Source: Advenella sp. FME57
Lineage (GTDB): Bacteria > Pseudomonadota > Gammaproteobacteria > Burkholderiales > Burkholderiaceae_B
Direction: 5' to 3'
Length of the DNA: 64,000 nt
NCBI RefSeq assembly: GCF_014897675.1
Contig: NZ_JABUXU010000010.1
Location: 1 to 64,000 of the forward strand
A program made the position numbers and the translations under genes. The notes beneath the pieces were generated by a model. It saw only the letters and a list, made by a program, of their open reading frames with translations. It had not been told where the DNA came from and searched no databases. How positions within the stretch are numbered: position 1 is the first letter of the stretch; the number at the start of each line of letters is the position of its first letter. Of the stretch, positions 45,656 to 55,777 are shown one piece after another.

Positions 45656-46252
45656 ATGCAAACTTTACTCGGACACATTCAAGGTACAACGCCCATGACA
45701 CGGATTAAGAAGGATTCCCACAACCTGACAACGCTTCCTCTTACCGCCTCCCAGCCTTCGCTGCTGCCAGATGGGTCAGACCAGGTATTACGGCACTTGA
45801 CTCTGGGCTTCGCTGTTCTGGGGTGGCAGCTTATCGACATTCGAGCCTCTTTCGGGAAATTACTCCATCTCTCACCATTTCAGTATGTGGCTCTTCAGGC
45901 AATTGCGCGTATTGACAACAACGAACCTTGGACCACTCGATTTCTAGCAAAGCATTTTCGGGTAACAAACGCATACGTAAGTATGGAGATTCGTCCGCTC
46001 GTTCAGCAAGGCTTGATAAGCAGTCTAGCCAATCCTGACGATAAAAGAGTGAAGTTGCTCTCCGTTACACCGAAAGGCAATTCCTTATTGACAAAGCTGG
46101 CCCCGATACAACAGCAAGTAAATGATCGCTTATTTTCCCAATTTAACGAAGCTCGCCTTCTCGAGCAGTGCCGCACTATCGAGCGGATGATCGAAGATGC
46201 GGAGCGAGCAAAGAAGCACCTGCAAGATGTCTTGTCCAATCGCGGCTTTTAG
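45656..46252 (+). CDS. MarR-family transcriptional regulator
   Basis: The protein has up to 198 residues. ATG at 45695, with AAGG upstream, is an alternative start giving 185. The winged HTH is EPWTTRFLAKHFRVTNAYVS, then MEIRPLVQQGLISSLANPDD and KRVKLLSVTPKG, matching MarR proteins. A shared inverted repeat in front of the hydrolase at 46405 and the monooxygenase operon at 53782 makes it the probable regulator of both. Confidence 0.9.
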   Translation: MQTLLGHIQGTTPMTRIKKDSHNLTTLPLTASQPSLLPDGSDQVLRHLTLGFAVLGWQLIDIRASFGKLLHLSPFQYVALQAIARIDNNEPWTTRFLAKHFRVTNAYVSMEIRPLVQQGLISSLANPDDKRVKLLSVTPKGNSLLTKLAPIQQQVNDRLFSQFNEARLLEQCRTIERMIEDAERAKKHLQDVLSNRGF

Positions 46253-46326: not shown

Positions 46327-46353
46327 TATAGTTAAGTTACTTACTTAATATAT
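46327..46353. promoter_or_regulatory. putative MarR operator before the hydrolase gene
   Basis: TATAGTTAAGT-5 nt-ACTTAATATAT, with core TTAAGT/ACTTAA. The left arm is identical to the one at 53794-53804. It lies 51 bp before the ATG at 46405. Confidence 0.72.
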
Positions 46354-46404: not shown

Positions 46405-47229
46405 ATGTCAAACGACCAAACACGGATCATATCTCGAAGGGAATGGATGTTGACAACGGGAAGCGGGCTCGCGCTGTCATTAGTACCACTAAGTGGCGTA
46501 CAGGCGACTTCAGTATCCGACAGAGGAAAATTCTCGCGACCGGATATCTTACTCGTCCACGGAGCTTGGCATGGAGGGTGGTGTTATCGGCGTGTCGCCG
46601 ACATTCTTACCGGGCTCGGTCATCGCGTTTTTGCACCGACCCTCACGGGCTTGGCTGATAGATCTCATTTGCTCACCACAAATGTTACGTTGACGACGCA
46701 CATTCAGGATATCGTGAATCTGGTACGCTGGGAAGAACTCGATAAGTTCATTTTGGTTGGCCATTCCTATGGCGGTATGGTTATCTCGGGCGCAACGGAG
46801 CAGATAGGTGCAAACAAAATTCAGTCACTGGTGTTTCTAGACGCCTTTCTTCCCAAAAATGGACAAAGCCTGGTCGATCAATCAGACGTATCTCGACAAA
46901 TGGTGAAGAATAACCCGACAGCCTTGTTGGAGCCTATTCCAGCAGCGGTTTTTCAAGTTAACGAAGCAGACAGAGAATGGGTGGATCGGCAATGTACTCC
47001 ACAACCTCTCAAGACTTTCACAGAAGCCCTCACGCTATCAGATATTCGGGATAAAGTGAGTAAGAAACTATATGTTAGGGCAGCCAACTACGAGCAACCG
47101 GCATTTGATTCGTTTTTCGATATGGCGAAATCGGATCCTCGATGGTCCGCACATCATCTGCAGTGTGGACATGATGTAATGCTCGACATGCCAGAAGAAG
47201 TGGCTAAGCTCATCAGCTCAAGCGCTTGA
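46405..47229 (+). CDS. Tat-exported alpha/beta hydrolase
   Basis: The 274-residue protein begins with a twin-arginine signal (ISRREWMLTTGSGLALSLVP). The hydrolase core has LVHGAWHGGWCYRRV, the elbow LVGHSYGGMVI with Ser121 as nucleophile, and the C-terminal LQCGHDVMLDMPEEV with His. The HGAWHGGWCW-type motif places it near salicylate-esterase/hydroxynitrile-lyase-like hydrolases. It shares its operator with the operon at 48199-53782 and may release that operon's substrate from an ester or amide outside the cytoplasm (inference). Confidence 0.9.
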   Translation: MSNDQTRIISRREWMLTTGSGLALSLVPLSGVQATSVSDRGKFSRPDILLVHGAWHGGWCYRRVADILTGLGHRVFAPTLTGLADRSHLLTTNVTLTTHIQDIVNLVRWEELDKFILVGHSYGGMVISGATEQIGANKIQSLVFLDAFLPKNGQSLVDQSDVSRQMVKNNPTALLEPIPAAVFQVNEADREWVDRQCTPQPLKTFTEALTLSDIRDKVSKKLYVRAANYEQPAFDSFFDMAKSDPRWSAHHLQCGHDVMLDMPEEVAKLISSSA

Positions 47230-47519: not shown

Positions 47520-47966
47520 CTCGATGCAATGCTGGCGTTTGTGCATGAAGGTGATACGGTCATAGTGCATAGAATGGATCGCCTGACGCGAAACCTTAAC
47601 GATTTGCGCCGGCTTGTCCAGTTGCCAACTAAACGTGGTGTGCGTATTGAGTATGTCAAGGAAAGTCTGATCTTTACTGGTGAAGATTTACCGATGGAAA
47701 ATCTATTGTTATCGGTGATGGGCGTGTTTGCCGAGTTCGAGCGGGCACTGATCCGCGAGTGACAACGGGAGGGTATTGCTCTGACAAAACGCGGCGCCTA
47801 TCGTGGCCGCCAAAAGTCTATATCATCTGAACAAGTGATCGTCCTGCTTCCTGGGATTGCGTCTGGTGAGAAACAATCAGTGCAGGCCGATGAGTATGGT
47901 ATTAGTAGGAGAGCGAAGTACCAATATCTTCGGGCTGCTCAACGTCTCACACTGACAAATAAATAA
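47520..47966 (+). pseudogene. truncated serine resolvase with an internal stop
   Basis: The frame reads LDAMLAFVHEGDTVIVHRMD, then RLTRNLNDLRRLVQ and GVFAEFERALIRE, all from the catalytic domain of Tn3-type resolvases. The first third, including the catalytic Ser, is missing. A TGA at 47760-47762 stands where relatives have Arg. After it the frame continues QREGIALTKRGAYRGRQKSI to the DNA-binding end at 47966. Two defects make it dead. Confidence 0.82.
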
Positions 47967-48198: not shown

Positions 48199-49194
48199 TT
48201 AGCGAGTGATTTGAATGCCGGCTTCCCGAATTAGCTTGCCTATATTCTGATTATCATTTTTTACGAAATCCGTAAACTCCTTTGGCGTAAAGGTGCCAGG
48301 ATCTACACCCAGTTCTGTTAACCGCTTTTTGCGTTGTGGATCCTTAAGCGCAGTCCGTATTGACTCATTCAATTTTTTCACAATGCCGGGTGGTGTGCCG
48401 GCGGGGGAAAATACGCCGAACCAGGATTGCATCTCATAGCCATCCACGCCCGCTTCTTGAAAGGTAGGGACGTCAGGTAAGAGGGGGTCGCGTGTCGAAC
48501 TGGTTACAGCGAGTGGGCGCAGCTTCCCTGCATGGATGTGCGGAATCACCGAAATCGTGTTGGCAAACATTGCCTGAACTTCTTCACCAATCACGGCGGT
48601 CGTCGCTGGTGCGGAACCTTTGTACGGAACCGAAACAATCTTGGCGCCCGATTTGATTTTGTACAGCTCTGCTGCAAGACTCATGGATGTTCCGACACCC
48701 GCATGTGAAAAGTTTAAGCCACCGGGATTGTTGAAGGCGTGTTTTGTGAAGTTACCTAGCGTTTTTGGCGGAAACGCGGTCGGCACAACCAGCACGTTGT
48801 TAACTGTACCGATCAGGGCGACAGGAATGAAGTCTGCCATTGGATCGTAAGATAGATCGGATATTAGATAAGGATTAGCTGAGATGCTGCCTTGACTCCC
48901 GATCAGTAGTGTATACCCGTCCCCAGGTGCGCGGGCGACAAGTGAGCTGCCCACACTTGCACTTCCACCGGGCTTGTTTAATACAATGACTGGTTGATCG
49001 AGGTTCGGACTTAGGGCTTCCGAAATTATCCGCGCAAGCACGTCGTTTGTTCCTCCTGCAGCAAACGGCACCACGATTTCTATTGGCTTTGAGGGATAGG
49101 TCTCTGTGGCGGCAACGGAGCTAGTTATTGGGATCATGCCAACTGTTATCGCGATGATAAATGGGCCGACTGAATACTTTATCAATGAATTCAT
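48199..49194 (-). CDS. Bug/TctC-type tripartite tricarboxylate receptor
   Basis: The 331-residue protein has a signal peptide (MNSLIKYSVGPFIIAITVGM...SSVAA), then YPSKPIEIVVPFAAGGTNDV and VLNKPGGSASVGSSLVARAP, the Bug landmarks. It is the last gene of the monooxygenase operon, so it probably presents the operon's substrate or senses it. TctA/B partners are not in the window. Confidence 0.94.
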   Translation of the reverse strand: MNSLIKYSVGPFIIAITVGMIPITSSVAATETYPSKPIEIVVPFAAGGTNDVLARIISEALSPNLDQPVIVLNKPGGSASVGSSLVARAPGDGYTLLIGSQGSISANPYLISDLSYDPMADFIPVALIGTVNNVLVVPTAFPPKTLGNFTKHAFNNPGGLNFSHAGVGTSMSLAAELYKIKSGAKIVSVPYKGSAPATTAVIGEEVQAMFANTISVIPHIHAGKLRPLAVTSSTRDPLLPDVPTFQEAGVDGYEMQSWFGVFSPAGTPPGIVKKLNESIRTALKDPQRKKRLTELGVDPGTFTPKEFTDFVKNDNQNIGKLIREAGIQITR

Positions 49195-49254
49195 GTTTGT
49201 CTCCTCGATGGGTAATGAATAGACCGAAGGTCATTCAAATGTTTTCTCGTGCTG

Positions 49255-49800
49255 CTATGCGTCAGATTCAATATAAGTACCTCGACAATAGATGAGAGGG
49301 TGCGGAGCATGGCCTTGGAACGAATTAATTTTGCAAAGATGAATCGTATGGTCCCCACCATAGTAGTGATCGATAATTTCGCAGATGAAGGTTGCCGCGC
49401 AGTCTTCCAGTACGGGAGTTCCACACTGTGCAAGGCTGTAGCTGATCCCCGCGAATTTATCGACATCCGGCCGGGAAAATTGCGCCGCAAGGCGTCGCTG
49501 CTCGGCGGACAAAACATTGATGACAATCGTTTTCGCTTTGAGAAACCCTGAATGGCTGGGTGCTGTATTCACCTGGCTCCATAGCACTAGAGGTGGGTCA
49601 AGTGAGACCGATGCAAAAGAATTGACGGTAACCCCAAGTGGTGACCCTTCCGGGTTCAATGCAGTGACAACTGTCACCCCTGTGGCAAAAGATGCTAGCG
49701 TGTTACGTAACTGCTTTTGTTGTTCCTGATTCAGCAGAGATTCCGTGTCGTTGGGTTTGAACGGCGCTCGCGGCTTTGAAACAGTGTCTGAAATAATCAT
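49255..49800 (-). CDS. flavin reductase (HpaC/DIM6-NTAB type)
   Basis: ATG at 49800 has GAGG upstream and gives 181 residues; the longer frame from 49866 overlaps the neighbour's end. RNTLASFATGVTVVTALNPE, GVTVNSFASVSLDPPLVLWS and RRLAAQFSRPDVDKFAGI are typical of reductases that supply FADH2 or FMNH2 to two-component monooxygenases. Its partner is the HpaB-like protein at 52265. Confidence 0.92.
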   Translation of the reverse strand: MIISDTVSKPRAPFKPNDTESLLNQEQQKQLRNTLASFATGVTVVTALNPEGSPLGVTVNSFASVSLDPPLVLWSQVNTAPSHSGFLKAKTIVINVLSAEQRRLAAQFSRPDVDKFAGISYSLAQCGTPVLEDCAATFICEIIDHYYGGDHTIHLCKINSFQGHAPHPLIYCRGTYIESDA

Positions 49801-49831
49801 GTCTAAGTTCCTCGATATTGCAAATGAGTTG

Positions 49832-50632
49832 CTACAGCAACGACGTTCGCTCGCTCCAGCCACCAATCAGTGTTTCTCCGGCTTCCGTCCGCGGACGAGG
49901 GTACGGGGAGCAGGCTATCTCAAGCATTGCCCATGCAAGGCAAAGATTCGATGAGATGACAGGTTTGCCTGACAGTTCAGCGATGGCTGGAATCGCGCGC
50001 AGCGTGGGCATTCCCGTGCCTGACAAAAGAATTGCGTCCGCTCTGTTTGTCGCTAGAGAATTTGTCGCTTCCAGAATCATTTCGGTATTCAATTTATAAA
50101 CATTACGCGTATCTTCCGCCTCGAGCATTGTTCGTACAGAGCCAATGACCGTGAGCCCGCACTTTTCCCAATGTGCATGGCTAATGTCAACCAACCATTG
50201 GGGGTATGGCGCGATTAATGCAATTTTTGAAACTCCGAGATGTTTCAGTGCAGAGAGAATGGCTTCTGCAGAAGTGATGATAGGGTATCCGTACTGCCGT
50301 GAAAACTCATCTATTCGACGCCGCTCCTCATCCCGCCCCAAAAGGTAGGTACTTCCTGTGCATGCGTAACCGACCACATCGAGCTTGGCGGTGTCGAATG
50401 CGTTCAGACTCGCGGCAAGATTGTGCATGTAATCCACCAGTCTGCTTTTTGAATCGACTCGGCTTCCTTGGAGTCGCGTTGTCAGTACACCGATCTGATC
50501 AGGCATCAATGCGGAAATCTCCGGTTCGACAATTGGATTGGCCTGTGGCACTGCAATACCAAACAGCCCCTGCTTGCTGTACTCTCTTTCGGGATGGCGA
50601 CTTATGTTTTGCGCAGTATCAATGACATGCAT
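49832..50632 (-). CDS. Asp/Glu racemase-superfamily enzyme (maleate isomerase / arylmalonate decarboxylase-like)
   Basis: The 266-residue protein has MPDQIGVLTTRLQ, the first active region DVVGYACTGSTYLLG, GVSKIALIAPYPQWLVDISH and the second region AILLSGTGMPTLRAIPAIAE. The first-half Cys is present. In the second half, where racemases and maleate isomerases carry another Cys, this reads SGTGM. Maleate isomerase, hydantoin racemase and arylmalonate decarboxylase activities all occur in the family, so the exact reaction is open. It starts 3 bp before the end of the upstream gene's spacer, so tight coupling is likely. Confidence 0.85.
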   Translation of the reverse strand: MHVIDTAQNISRHPEREYSKQGLFGIAVPQANPIVEPEISALMPDQIGVLTTRLQGSRVDSKSRLVDYMHNLAASLNAFDTAKLDVVGYACTGSTYLLGRDEERRRIDEFSRQYGYPIITSAEAILSALKHLGVSKIALIAPYPQWLVDISHAHWEKCGLTVIGSVRTMLEAEDTRNVYKLNTEMILEATNSLATNRADAILLSGTGMPTLRAIPAIAELSGKPVISSNLCLAWAMLEIACSPYPRPRTEAGETLIGGWSERTSLL

Positions 50633-50635
50633 TTG

Positions 50636-51544
50636 TTATCTCCCATCACCAGGTACGGTACCTTTAGGAAGATCGCTCACGTATTGCGCGATTTCACCTG
50701 GAGTGGTAAGCCATATCGAATCGCGATTATTATTGATGTGTTCCAGCACTGTCCTTAGCTGGTGGATGCGATGTGGATGCCCAGTCATGAACGTATGTAA
50801 CGACACGCAGTAAACCATAGGGAATGATTTTGATTCGTGTAGCTGTTCATCAAATGCATTTATCATCATTCGGGTGAAGTCGGTGTCGCTGGAACCCCTA
50901 TTGATATATGCGGGAAGGTCATTTAATTCCATCGACGGATACGGAACCGCCAAAATCGGTCCCTTACCGGTCTTGAACCACATCGGCTGTTCATCAAAAA
51001 ACCAGTCGAGCATGTATGTAAAGCCCAGTTCCTTCAGTAGTTCGGGCGTATTGGCGCTTTGCGAAATAAAAGGTCCGAGCCAGCCCTTGGGAGCCACACC
51101 CTCCGCTGAATTCATTTGATTGACAACCTGAACGATCATTTCTCGCTCCTGTGTTTCCGACATATCGATCTGCCGTTCTGAGTTGGTTCGACCGTGTCCT
51201 ACGAATTCATCTCCACGTTCACGAAATGCATCAAGAACTCGGGGGTAAACGTCATACACGGATGAGTTGGCGAGGATAGCCAGCGGTATTTCCAGGTCGT
51301 CAAAGAGTTTTTTAATGCGCCAGACCCCTACCCGGTTTCCATAATCACGATAGGCATAACCTCGATGGTAGGGCGCTGAAGGGGACGAGGTAAAGTCGTT
51401 TCCGGGATTCAGACCAAATTCAAAGGCTTCAATATTCAGTGCGAAGTAGACGGCAAGTCTTGTGCCATTTTCCCAATCGTAAGTCGGTCGATCGACGATA
51501 GCAGAATATGGATAGCGGTCTAGTTTTGTATCAAATTTTTTCAT
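50636..51544 (-). CDS. polysaccharide-deacetylase-family hydrolase (PuuE-like)
   Basis: The 302-residue protein, without a signal peptide, has RLAVYFALNIEAFEFG, YGNRVGVWRIKKLFDDLEIP, then DEFVGHGRTNSERQIDMSET. This cytoplasmic NodB-fold group includes PuuE allantoinase and other enzymes that hydrolyse cyclic amides. In this operon a ring-opening amidohydrolase step is likely. Confidence 0.88.
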   Translation of the reverse strand: MKKFDTKLDRYPYSAIVDRPTYDWENGTRLAVYFALNIEAFEFGLNPGNDFTSSPSAPYHRGYAYRDYGNRVGVWRIKKLFDDLEIPLAILANSSVYDVYPRVLDAFRERGDEFVGHGRTNSERQIDMSETQEREMIVQVVNQMNSAEGVAPKGWLGPFISQSANTPELLKELGFTYMLDWFFDEQPMWFKTGKGPILAVPYPSMELNDLPAYINRGSSDTDFTRMMINAFDEQLHESKSFPMVYCVSLHTFMTGHPHRIHQLRTVLEHINNNRDSIWLTTPGEIAQYVSDLPKGTVPGDGR

Positions 51545-51569
51545 GATTGCTCCTAGTTAATTATCAGTT

Positions 51570-52268
51570 TCATTTGGGAGATACGGATATTTCTCGCAAA
51601 CGTTTTAAGAGCTCGTTCGCCGGAAGTACCTCAGCATACTTTTGGGACATATCGAAGAGATTGACGACATGGGACACCTCTCCTCTGTCATAGACGCAAT
51701 CTTCAGGAACAATTACGTGGTAGTTATAGGAGAAGCCATCTACGACGCTGGCGCGTATACATCCAGAAGTCGTGCAGCCAACCATGAGTAAAGTGTCGAC
51801 ACCTAAATTCACCAGATGGCTGGCCAAGGACGTGCCGAAGAAGGCGCTGGGATGATGTTTCGGAATTAGAATGTCTCCCTCTATTGGAGCCAGATCGCCA
51901 AAGAACTCATAGCCACGAAGCGGTATATCCATCATGGTCGGGACTTTTTCCGTCAATCGACCTCTGTCGTATAATTTCTTTGGCGCAACGTGCGGATAAA
52001 GGACGGGCCAGTTCTTACTCCGAAACAGGGATAACAATGGCTTAACCTGATCAGCAGCAGCCCAGGCGGCGTCGCCACATGATGTGGGAAACTCTTTCAT
52101 CGCTTCCGCAATTGGGACACGAGCTGTGCCCGTCGTTCTGTATTGCATATCGATAATGAGAAGTGCCGGATGCTTTCCCATTCCGCCGGAGCCGCCAAAT
52201 CCTGCGGTGGCATATGCAGCTTTATCAGCATTTGTAATCAAGTCATCCCAAGGCCGTTTAATATTCAT
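51570..52268 (-). CDS. isochorismatase-like cysteine hydrolase
   Basis: The 232-residue protein has the catalytic triad pattern of the family: Asp in LLIIDMQYRTTG, Lys in PKHHPSAFFGTSL and Cys in VGCTTSGCIRASVVDG. The group contains N-carbamoylsarcosine amidase, maleamate amidase and ureidoacrylate amidohydrolase (RutB). It likely removes ammonia or a carbamoyl group from a linear intermediate. Its ATG overlaps the stop of the monooxygenase gene (ATGA). Confidence 0.92.
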   Translation of the reverse strand: MNIKRPWDDLITNADKAAYATAGFGGSGGMGKHPALLIIDMQYRTTGTARVPIAEAMKEFPTSCGDAAWAAADQVKPLLSLFRSKNWPVLYPHVAPKKLYDRGRLTEKVPTMMDIPLRGYEFFGDLAPIEGDILIPKHHPSAFFGTSLASHLVNLGVDTLLMVGCTTSGCIRASVVDGFSYNYHVIVPEDCVYDRGEVSHVVNLFDMSQKYAEVLPANELLKRLREISVSPK

Positions 52269-53782
52269 CTCGTAATTCCTCTGGGTGTCAAACCGCCAGT
52301 ATTAGCGGGTTCAACTATTTCTAATGGATTCAAAGAAGTGGTATGGTCATATGTCGCCATGAAGTCTTCGACTATTGCGTCGAACTTCTTCCAGGGAGCT
52401 TGTCGGAGGCTATAAGCTCGTACGACAAACGATGGGCCGGCGTAGAAGTTCTCATATTGGAGATGGCGGCTTGCAAATTCAGAGCCGAGCATGTCCCACG
52501 CTAGCTTGTAAAGCTTCATACGGTCTAACGCGGTTTCATGGTCTGTGGACCAAAACTCTTCAAAGATGGCATTCAGAGACTCATCATGTATTACCGAAAC
52601 GTTCGCGGGCATTTGGAAAACGGAGCCACCCATGAGCTCCCGTACCGCGGTGCACAACGAGACGTAGTTTTCTTGGCACCAATTCAAGGTTGCGTACATG
52701 TATCTACGATTGGGCAACACAAGTCCTTCGCCAATCTCTTCAAATGCGAGGATTTGCCCCGCTATCATTGCGGCGAGACTAGCTTCATACGCAGCAAGGC
52801 GACCTAACGTATCTTGGACGGCGGGAATGTTGCGGACGCCACCCGATTGACAAATTTTGTTCGCAAGCCCGAGGATGAATTGCAACTTCGACCAAAATCT
52901 GACGTTCGATTGATGGTTACCGAAACAATGACCCGCGGTATCAACGTATATGGACCTACTTAGCTCTATATGACCCAGGGTGAAGATACGGTTCCAAGGA
53001 ACCTTTACTTGATCGCAGAACAGCATCATGTCCGATTCGTCGAAGCGGGATGACAAAGGGTTATCAAATGCGCTTTCCGCCATCGCCTCCATGGACTTTC
53101 GGGACCATAGGCTAATCCCCGGTGTAGCGACAGGCAGTGCACATGTTATTGCCTCCTTTTCTCGACCTGGAGCTAGAGCTGATAGGTTACCAATCCAGAC
53201 TTCGTCGACAAAGGCGCCACCTGTCGCGAGCATTTTCATGCCATGGATGGTTACCCCAGACTCATCGGACGCGATTACCTGCAATGATGGGGAGTCAAAT
53301 AAATGTTCCTTAGCATCAGAGCTCCAGTTTTTGGCGCCAGCGGGAGGATGAACCGCGTATGTTACATACAGATCATTATCGCGAAGGTAACGATAATAAG
53401 CTTCAATGTTTTGTCGAAACCCGTGGTCTGAAAGGTCAAAAATATCAGGCTTCAGAGTCATCCCCGTGACGAAGGACGAAACATGGTCAGGCGAACGGCC
53501 CAATAATCCATAGCTGAAATCCGCCAGTAACTTGTGCCCGTTGCTCCGGAACTTCAGGTCTTCGATATTTCGGGGCTGCATGTAGTAGAAGCTATATCTC
53601 TGACCATTCTCTTCAAAAGACATTCCTGGCGTTGTTCGCTTGTAATCAAAAAGTTTGGCATATGTGCCAGCGGCATTGCGAAATGCGGGATGTTTCGTTA
53701 CGTCAGTGACAAGCTCGCCTCCAATATAAACTCGCCGTCCGTCGCGTAATGATTTTAAATATTCTTCACCCGTTCGTAGCAT
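52265..53782 (-). CDS. 4-hydroxyphenylacetate 3-hydroxylase (HpaB)-type FADH2 monooxygenase
   Basis: ATG at 53782, with GAGG 7 nt upstream, gives 505 residues starting MLRTGEEYLKSLRDGRRVYI, the usual HpaB beginning. The ATG at 53794 lies inside the operator and is rejected. Later landmarks are YAVHPPAGAKNWSSDAKEHL, FCDQVKVPWNRIF and IYVDTAGHCFGNHQSNVRFW. It needs reduced flavin from the reductase at 49255. As first gene of the operon it probably hydroxylates the ring of the substrate, which could be aromatic or N-heterocyclic. Confidence 0.94.
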   Translation of the reverse strand: MLRTGEEYLKSLRDGRRVYIGGELVTDVTKHPAFRNAAGTYAKLFDYKRTTPGMSFEENGQRYSFYYMQPRNIEDLKFRSNGHKLLADFSYGLLGRSPDHVSSFVTGMTLKPDIFDLSDHGFRQNIEAYYRYLRDNDLYVTYAVHPPAGAKNWSSDAKEHLFDSPSLQVIASDESGVTIHGMKMLATGGAFVDEVWIGNLSALAPGREKEAITCALPVATPGISLWSRKSMEAMAESAFDNPLSSRFDESDMMLFCDQVKVPWNRIFTLGHIELSRSIYVDTAGHCFGNHQSNVRFWSKLQFILGLANKICQSGGVRNIPAVQDTLGRLAAYEASLAAMIAGQILAFEEIGEGLVLPNRRYMYATLNWCQENYVSLCTAVRELMGGSVFQMPANVSVIHDESLNAIFEEFWSTDHETALDRMKLYKLAWDMLGSEFASRHLQYENFYAGPSFVVRAYSLRQAPWKKFDAIVEDFMATYDHTTSLNPLEIVEPANTGGLTPRGITR

Positions 53783-53793
53783 TGCATACCTCA

Positions 53794-53820
53794 TATAGTT
53801 AAGTAAGTGACTTAACTATA
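53794..53820. promoter_or_regulatory. putative MarR operator before the monooxygenase operon
   Basis: TATAGTTAAGT (53794-53804) and ACTTAACTATA (53810-53820) form a perfect 11-bp inverted repeat with a 5-bp spacer, ending 11 bp before the chosen start codon at 53782. The left arm and spacing are shared with 46327-46353. Confidence 0.8.
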
Positions 53821-55147: not shown

Positions 55148-55777
55148 ATGAAGATTTCCAGCCCGATCTCGACCGATACAGTTGATGCTTTGATCGTAGT
55201 CGATGTTCAGAACGCTTTCGTTTCTGGACCTGAAGCTGTGCCGGAACATAAGCAGCTCATTTCTATGGTCGGCTATGTGCTTAGCCAGGCCAGGTCCGCC
55301 AACGCGCCCGTGATCTTCCTCCAGAATGATGGTCCGGCCGGCGCCGTCGATGAGCCGTACCAACCAGGATGGGCGCTATTGTTCCCTCCGCAACCTGGCG
55401 ACAAGATCGTGCGGAAGAAAAACGATAACGGGTTTGACGGAACGAGCCTACATGCCATCCTCACCGGTCTGGACATACGAACGGTCGCGATATGCGGCTT
55501 GCTTTCGGAAATGTGCGTTGCGGCGACCGCGCGGGCAGCCATGGAACATGGTTATGGCGTTCTGCTGCCGCACGATGCGCATGCAACTTACGACGTTCCC
55601 GCCGGTCCAGGATCAGAGGGCGTGCCTGCAGCGATGGCGGCGCGGGCGGCTGAATGGTCGCTTGGCGACGAGATCAAAATCTGTGCGTCGGCGCATGAAG
55701 TTCAGTTCGCGGCAAGTCATTTCGAATCCGAGCAAAATCCCAGCAAAGTGTCTGAAAATTCTACTTGGGATTCCTGA
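55148..55777 (+). CDS. isochorismatase-like cysteine hydrolase
   Basis: The 209-residue protein has Asp in LIVVDVQNAFVSG, Lys in KIVRKKNDNGFDGTSL and the nucleophile Cys in GLLSEMCVAATARAAMEHGY. The YcaC/nicotinamidase-like group hydrolyses amides, but no substrate can be named. It is only distantly similar to the enzyme at 51570. Confidence 0.92.
   Translation: MKISSPISTDTVDALIVVDVQNAFVSGPEAVPEHKQLISMVGYVLSQARSANAPVIFLQNDGPAGAVDEPYQPGWALLFPPQPGDKIVRKKNDNGFDGTSLHAILTGLDIRTVAICGLLSEMCVAATARAAMEHGYGVLLPHDAHATYDVPAGPGSEGVPAAMAARAAEWSLGDEIKICASAHEVQFAASHFESEQNPSKVSENSTWDS

Follow-up and report, generated by a model that had tools for sequence, protein, structure and literature searches.

The stretch of DNA analysed here, hereafter called the window, comprises 64,000 nucleotides of the genome of Advenella sp. 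FME57 (4.74 Mb; contig NZ_JABUXU010000010.1, positions 1 to 64,000 of the forward strand). On its minus strand, six genes spanning 48199-53794 (longest open reading frames, ORFs) encode a flavin-dependent oxygenase, two hydrolases, a protein of the Asp/Glu racemase superfamily, a flavin reductase and a solute receptor. We consider it moderately probable that they form a catabolic operon under MarR control whose substrate is an N-heterocyclic compound, probably or possibly a ring carboxylate. The gene content and its conservation, the operator and the residues of the active sites have been observed; we infer every reaction, the order of the steps and the class of substrate. The features are as follows, the orthologues being those of Variovorax sp. 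770b2 and Bordetella sp. BOR01.

52265..53782, minus strand: MonoOx, FADH2-dependent oxygenase component of the HpaB family, 505 amino acids (Pfam HpaB_N/HpaB; orthologues 77-79% identical)
51570..52268, minus strand: CysHyd, isochorismatase-fold cysteine amidohydrolase (Pfam PF00857 Isochorismatase, 4e-27)
50636..51544, minus strand: PuuE-like deacetylase-fold hydrolase (NCBIfam PuuE model TIGR03212, 5.1e-36; orthologues 77-80%)
49832..50632, minus strand: Race, arylmalonate decarboxylase / maleate isomerase branch of the Asp/Glu racemase superfamily (Pfam Amdase, 67.5 bits)
49255..49800, minus strand: FRed, flavin reductase partner (Pfam Flavin_Reduct, 1.7e-34; orthologues 53-61%)
48199..49194, minus strand: Bug/TctC solute receptor (Pfam TctC, 1.4e-68; orthologues 55-59%)
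53795..53819, minus strand: operator over the oxygenase promoter, palindrome ATAGTTAAGT-cactt-ACTTAACTAT, with equivalents in both other genomes
46329..46348, plus strand: second operator core with 1 mismatch (genome scan) and a promoter like that of the oxygenase, in front of the alpha/beta-hydrolase gene
46405..47229, plus strand: alpha/beta-hydrolase (Pfam Abhydrolase_6, 1.3e-22), operator in front
45656..46252, plus strand: MarR-family regulator (Pfam MarR), orthologous to the MarR of the other two genomes

The earlier note on this DNA had described six genes running in one direction with short gaps or overlaps, and this description holds, as the ORFs lie at the coordinates listed and the Pfam matches agree with the assignments. 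With the starts chosen here, the intergenic gaps in reading direction amount to -4, 25, 3, 31 and 60 bases. The MonoOx start has been set at ATG 53782, which is preceded by AGG and agrees with the starts of the orthologues (the longest ORF begins at 53794), and that of FRed at ATG 49800, as suggested by the orthologue beginnings (longest ORF from TTG 49866). The HpaB_N (1.4e-68) and HpaB (1.1e-41) domains of MonoOx, taken together with the flavin reductase of the operon, place it among the two-component oxygenases of the HpaB superfamily, and the PuuE-like protein scores slightly below the Pfam cut-off for Polysacc_deac_1 (8.8e-5; 22.9 against 23.1 bits).

A pattern scan with the oxygenase over one genome per species (84,980 species), which detects close relatives only, has yielded two loci, in Variovorax sp. 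770b2 (L039) and Bordetella sp. BOR01 (L040). Both contain all six genes in identical order and an orthologous MarR gene immediately upstream of the operon, so that the conserved co-occurrence for which the earlier note had proposed a search is found across genomes. Because the entire order recurs in two other genera, the arrangement is not a product of chance. The identities to the window proteins (Variovorax/Bordetella) are 79/77% for the oxygenase, 72/67% for CysHyd, 80/77% for the PuuE-like protein, 65/55% for Race, 61/53% for the flavin reductase and 59/55% for the receptor. The six-gene cassette is rare: protein searches in overlapping samples of 268 genomes of the family, 399 of the order and 398 of the phylum have returned, beyond the window's own, only one genome with an oxygenase above 60% identity, which is counted once with BOR01. 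In two further genomes of the window's family (G582, L062; G513, L064), CysHyd and a racemase-superfamily gene accompany the oxygenase gene; the stretch fetched shows no PuuE-like gene. PuuE-like homologues at E <= 1e-60 occur in 46 of the 399 order genomes, the window's own included (best identity outside it 49%). For 29 of the 45 others short loci (3.5-3.9 kb) have been compared; at 1e-8 none of these matches the oxygenase, CysHyd, Race or the flavin reductase, and a few match the Bug receptor. As markers of the cassette the PuuE-like homologues have been rejected.

For all six operon proteins Variovorax is closer to the window than Bordetella, though the latter belongs to the window's own family, and this, along with a serine recombinase/resolvase-like fragment seen by eye between the alpha/beta-hydrolase gene and the operon (47529-47762, plus strand; a possible mobile-element remnant), weakly hints at horizontal transfer of the operon. 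The hint is weak because the MarR identities run in the opposite order, with 65% to Bordetella and 53% to Variovorax (at most 34% to five other MarR proteins compared). The Variovorax locus also contains, about 3.4 kb from the cassette MarR gene, three genes that by eye resemble a molybdenum hydroxylase (1820-5770 of L039), which have not been seen in the Bordetella locus.

The oxygenase promoter reads TTGACA-N17-TATAGT, and its -10 box is covered by the palindrome ATAGTTAAGT-cactt-ACTTAACTAT, related palindromes being found at the same promoter position upstream of the oxygenase gene in Variovorax and Bordetella. The three genomes have been scanned with the pattern TARTTAAKTCACTTANTTAA, allowing up to 3 mismatches. 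In the window's genome the scan has recovered the operon site with 0 mismatches (20-base core at 53799-53818), the same palindrome on the opposite strand with 3, and the site at 46329-46348 with 1, so that sites with at most 1 mismatch lie only before the oxygenase and before the alpha/beta-hydrolase. Variovorax has shown the operon site only (1 mismatch; 3 on the other strand). In Bordetella the operon site matches with 0 mismatches on one strand and with 3 on the opposite one, and two unrelated sites match with 3. Since the reversed pattern, used as control, also gives matches (2, 1 and 4 in the window's genome, Variovorax and Bordetella, their mismatch levels not being printed), 3-mismatch matches alone are meaningless. 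As a second operator and a similar promoter precede the alpha/beta-hydrolase gene, this enzyme, whose N-terminus is twin-arginine-like (SRREW, read by eye), belongs to the probable regulon, which in the window's genome likely consists of MarR, the six genes and the alpha/beta-hydrolase. The functional unit is larger than the span first noted, extending to the MarR gene and the operator-bearing alpha/beta-hydrolase gene. A second isochorismatase-family gene (55148-55777, plus strand) lies roughly 1.4 kb ahead of the operon on the opposite strand, and the operator scan has given no site near it.

Of the two hydrolases, CysHyd aligns with its Lys137 and Cys170 to the structures 26st, 3ot4, 4l07 and 1nba, and with its Asp40 to 26st, 4l07 and 1nba, the alignment to 3ot4 beginning after this residue; Asp, Lys and Cys constitute the catalytic triad of NicF, and CysHyd thus retains it. 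Its nearest structures by phmmer are the N-carbamoylsarcosine amidohydrolase 26st (1.3e-29) and 3ot4/3uao (3.2e-28), listed as 'putative isochorismatase', which we take to be Bordetella NicF. Both are nearly equally close, so that the match favours neither specificity for CysHyd. The PuuE-like protein, whose structure prediction has been too poor for use (mean pLDDT 55.8), is nearest to the PuuE allantoinase 3cl6 (6.7e-27), nearer than to HpPgdA (3qbu, 9.2e-12), and so by this comparison, of which the P. putida cyclic imide hydrolase (AAY98498) itself was not part, does not fall into the branch closest to HpPgdA and the cyclic imide hydrolases to which HxnM belongs. It scores 124.2 bits against TIGR03212, far below the cut-off of 424.6, and the PuuE and Rut analogies of the earlier note, if read as membership, fail on such wide shortfalls from curated cut-offs. 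The metal motif of the deacetylase fold is HxxxH, and its second His is lost here, HGRTN standing in place of HGYRW in PuuE and HGYSH in HpPgdA; the enzyme is, to judge from this motif, probably metal-independent. The paper on HpPgdA (PMC3084791, in the portions available) describes the substrate of PuuE as a small cyclic imide and credits HpPgdA, but not PuuE, with the ability to bind a metal. In all 3 plasmids viewed, from 26 records, a PuuE-like homologue has an amidase gene within 3 kb.

The same two neighbours in structure space, PuuE allantoinase and N-carbamoylsarcosine amidohydrolase, invite a ureide or hydantoin route, in which MonoOx would yield a hydroxylated cyclic ureide, the PuuE-like enzyme would open it in the manner of PuuE with allantoin, CysHyd would act as N-carbamoyl amidohydrolase and Race would take care of the stereochemistry like a hydantoin or allantoin racemase; in Variovorax RA8, moreover, a PuuE-like homologue adjoins hydantoinase/oxoprolinase genes. 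We hold this route to be unlikely, in view of the low score of the PuuE-like protein against its model and of two features of Race, namely its distance from hydantoin and allantoin racemases in Foldseek (at best 9e-6 and 2e-4, respectively) and its lack of a second-position Cys, which makes two-base racemisation improbable.

Turning to the oxygenase, MonoOx falls below the curated HpaB cut-offs (269 of 480.2 bits for TIGR02309; 215 of 885.2 for TIGR02310). In the FAD-type HpaB of T. thermophilus, Arg100, Tyr104 and His142 bind the substrate hydroxyl, and FAD/FMN-type HpaB enzymes are described as being without this trio (PMC10537072, in the excerpts available). MonoOx and its two orthologues carry Arg, His and Tyr at positions 100, 104 and 142, where three reference chains have Arg, Tyr and His, so that the Arg of the phenol contact is kept and the other two residues are swapped. 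Among 31 relatives from 30 loci, the orthologues included, His/Tyr at 104/142 prevails (26), followed by Ala/Tyr (2) and Tyr/Tyr (1), and two Thermomicrobium relatives that adjoin hpaD show Phe/His and Tyr/His. A homologue of a panel of C-N hydrolases (CysHyd, amidase signature (AS) family amidase, PuuE-like) has been found near 13 of 29 oxygenase-relative loci and in 0 of 20 arbitrary 18-kb control regions (Fisher p 0.0003). These control regions, of which 18 come from test-set genomes, represent background and not the neighbourhoods of other catabolic oxygenases. As 4 of the 29 loci had supplied the panel or belong to cassette genomes, the count has been repeated for the others, giving 9 of 25 (p 0.0025); the loci are mutually related. 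L076 (Thermomicrobium) and L040 (same genome as L060) have been left out of the 29, and 9 of 18 non-self places and 11 of 16 plasmid matches of the oxygenase lie outside this count. A clade of oxygenases with swapped contact residues and frequent C-N hydrolase neighbours would offer a sequence handle for related routes. In 7 of the 29 loci (L061, L066, L072, L073, L098, L103, L105), genes for a flavin reductase, an HpaB relative, a cupin, an AS amidase and a DUF2848 protein recur as a cluster, and the annotation of L072 and L073 also shows branched-chain ABC transporter genes; a literature search for DUF2848 has given no papers.

HpaB enzymes act on phenols, and cupin, Rieske-like or UbiD-like genes share the clusters of several relatives of MonoOx, as would be expected if the oxygenase hydroxylated an amide-bearing phenolic compound whose side chains were trimmed by the hydrolases, with no opening of the ring. 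Such ordinary aromatic or phenolic catabolism seems quite improbable, since the six genes include no ring-cleavage dioxygenase domain, a PuuE-like enzyme would be an odd choice for side-chain amides, and the phenol-contacting Tyr104/His142 are swapped, though the excerpts of PMC10537072 describe FAD/FMN-type HpaB enzymes that lack the trio altogether.

The fourth protein, Race, had been called a member of the Asp/Glu racemase superfamily, which is correct and can be narrowed to the arylmalonate decarboxylase (AMDase) / maleate isomerase branch. Pfam reports Amdase (PF17645) at 1.7e-18, its 67.5 bits well above the gathering score of 25.9, and Asp_Glu_race at 1.4e-9; the NCBIfam AMDase model (63 bits, cut-off 225) and the ectoine utilisation EutA model TIGR02990 (83.4 bits, cut-off 318) are both missed. 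The best matches by sequence and fold are maleate isomerases, and the predicted fold (mean pLDDT 71) matches the same structures, with Foldseek values for maleate isomerases and AMDase of 7e-14 to 5e-10. Alignments with 3ixl, 4fq7 and 2xec assign Cys91 to AMDase position 74 and Gly205 to position 188, and set Thr92, Tyr143 and Gly207 against AMDase Thr75, Tyr126 and Gly190, of which Thr75 and Tyr126 have functional roles. The first catalytic Cys (Cys91) is thus present, and the second is absent from all three orthologues (GTGMP instead of CVQMP). Of 14 other aligned rows, 5 share the Cys74/Gly188 layout (both orthologues of the cassette, plus relatives from Roseomonas, Streptomyces and Rhodococcus fascians), and neither Cys is found in two relatives from other oxygenase clusters and one from Shinella. 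Natural AMDase uses Cys188, and engineered G74C variants combined with C188S, C188G or C188A give (S)-products (PMC12576825, in the passages available). With Gly at 188 and Cys at 74, Race lacks the Cys of the natural enzyme, and this layout together with the missing second Cys argues for decarboxylation or protonation as the putative Race step rather than an isomerisation of the NicE type. The NicE analogy of the earlier note has accordingly become unlikely in its mechanism, and Race as a NicE-type maleate isomerase has been rejected for want of the second Cys. If the assignment is true, the layout that engineers have built to invert the stereochemistry of arylmalonate decarboxylase would have a natural example in Race.

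A maleimide/maleamate route, in which ring oxidation would give a maleimide-type imide and then maleamate, CysHyd would act as NicF and Race as a maleate isomerase leading to fumarate, is very unlikely, since the match of CysHyd to 3ot4/3uao, the maleate isomerases among the best matches of Race and the retained first Cys are set against the replacement of the second Cys in all three orthologues, the prospect that a one-Cys enzyme may stall (as in PDB 2xed, by its title a C194S maleate isomerase with covalent succinylcysteine), and a two-Cys paralogue elsewhere in the window's genome. This paralogue, of maleate-isomerase type, lies on G000:C37 (L145, 7969-8718) and by eye adjoins a LysR-like gene. 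Another racemase-superfamily paralogue of the same genome, of the other Cys type (GTSAG/CTNL), adjoins a dihydropyrimidinase/hydantoinase-like gene (L146, 6350-8547; by eye). On plasmids of Streptomyces and Rhodococcus fascians, proteins of the Cys74/Gly188 type annotated 'arylmalonate decarboxylase' (L139, 5977-6747; L140, 5986-6672) stand beside genes annotated ArgC and RimK, and in L139 a LysW-annotated gene adjoins as well.

For the six genes, catabolism of an N-heterocycle or cyclic amide is the best-fitting class. A carboxylate substrate is suggested by the presence of the receptor and of the AMDase-like protein; it would enter the cell by way of the Bug receptor and a permease whose gene lies elsewhere, and in this strain it may be freed from an ester by the possibly exported alpha/beta-hydrolase. 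MonoOx, supplied with reduced flavin by FRed, would hydroxylate the ring, its product being a cyclic imide or lactam in tautomeric form, the PuuE-like enzyme would hydrolyse a C-N bond of the ring to give a half-amide, and CysHyd would remove the nitrogen as ammonia, leaving a dicarboxylate. Race, using Cys91 alone, would then decarboxylate or protonate a malonate-type or conjugated acid from the face opposite to that of classical AMDase, yielding a central metabolite, and MarR would repress the genes until substrate or an intermediate binds. The class of compound proposed in the earlier note hence stands as the best fit, on account of the C-N hydrolase co-occurrence and the fungal imidase-amidase precedent, although the sequence proves neither the substrate nor the opening of the ring.

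Several observations weigh against such an operon. The comparison of oxygenase neighbourhoods has been made against background regions, one of which contains a Race homologue, and 16 of the 29 loci show no panel hydrolase. Outside the cassette, seven relatives reach 53-56% identity, of which 6 adjoin a cupin gene and only 3 lie near a panel C-N hydrolase, and the Rieske-like or UbiD-like genes seen by eye in some related clusters fit ordinary aromatic catabolism. Bug homologues are equally common at oxygenase loci (9 of 29) and in controls (8 of 20), and no TctA/TctB-like gene has been noticed among the window ORFs by eye, no dedicated search having been made. The alpha/beta-hydrolase is absent from the other two cassettes: of the loci fetched, those above 5 kb in length, the two cassette loci among them, contain no homologue of it at E 1e-3.

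More specifically, and only tentatively, the operon may encode an undescribed aerobic route for N-heteroaromatic carboxylates, in which an HpaB clade with swapped contacts would form a cyclic imide, a PuuE-like imidase would open it without a ring-cleavage dioxygenase, a cysteine hydrolase would remove the nitrogen, and the malonate-type acid left over would be decarboxylated by a natural one-cysteine enzyme corresponding to the engineered (S)-selective arylmalonate decarboxylase. The statement of the earlier note that no known pathway combines all of these enzymes agrees with our searches of the open-access literature, which have found no description of the gene set or of close combinations. 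As the combination has not been found described as one pathway, it represents a candidate new degradation route. If true, it would give bacteria another hydrolytic means of opening an N-heterocycle, in which an HpaB-type oxygenase would supply a PuuE-like imidase with its substrate. In the parts of PMC9304392 at hand, an imidase step by a deacetylase fold has so far been put forward for a fungus, and the enzyme known for C-N opening in bacteria is of another type.

Among individual systems, a plasmid operon of Rhizobium sp. ACO-34A (CP021373.1, L074), whose function is annotated by domain only, resembles the six-gene operon in uniting an HpaB relative (39% identical), a PuuE-like gene, a flavin reductase and a racemase-superfamily gene, its order being HpaB relative, AS amidase, PuuE-like, amidohydrolase, flavin reductase, racemase-superfamily gene. 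It differs in that the AS-family amidase and the extra amidohydrolase replace CysHyd, in its AraC-type regulator (by eye), and in its Race relative, which has Cys at 188 and none at 74. Pyridoxine catabolism, considered for a 'pyridoxal 4-dehydrogenase' beside this operon, has been dropped, as the neighbouring carbohydrate kinase and SgcQ look like sugar metabolism; the dehydrogenase label is often misapplied. In the Rut pathway, a two-component flavin system oxygenates an N-heterocycle and an isochorismatase-fold hydrolase acts next, the oxygenase RutA being luciferase-like, whereas the window's oxygenase is of the HpaB family, CysHyd reaches 48.6 of 377.95 bits against the RutB model, and FRed 67.1 of 254.75 against RutF. 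The NicF/NicE tail of bacterial nicotinate catabolism is echoed by the resemblance of CysHyd to 3ot4/3uao, presumably NicF, and by the position of Race in the NicE-type maleate isomerase branch, and differs by the missing second catalytic Cys of Race and the absence of a ring-cleavage dioxygenase from the six genes.

In the hxn nicotinate pathway of Aspergillus nidulans, the monooxygenases HxnX and HxnV act with a proposed cyclic imidase, HxnM, and then the amidase HxnN, the HxnM reaction being the authors' proposal from mutants and metabolites (PMC9304392, PMC8478523, as far as the excerpts go). The route proposed here shares with it oxygenation, C-N ring opening by a deacetylase fold and subsequent amide hydrolysis, but in these excerpts HxnX and HxnV resemble NicC and phenol 2-monooxygenase rather than HpaB, HxnN is of the AS family, and no AMDase-like step appears. 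HxnM is 64% identical to the P. putida cyclic imide hydrolase and structurally closest to HpPgdA (PMC9304392, same excerpts); for the PuuE-like protein of the window, PuuE is the nearer structure. The C-N opening of 2,3,6-trihydroxypyridine in Rhodococcus and Arthrobacter provides a bacterial N-heterocycle opened between C and N, with an opener that is, by its description in the available text of PMC9304392, of the polyketide-cyclase type and not PuuE-like. AMDase itself, finally, differs from Race in its natural Gly74/Cys188 and in the NCBIfam model that Race misses; Race nevertheless scores above the Pfam Amdase gathering score, keeps T75, Y126 and G190, and carries Cys74/Gly188 as in the engineered G74C/C188G enzyme.

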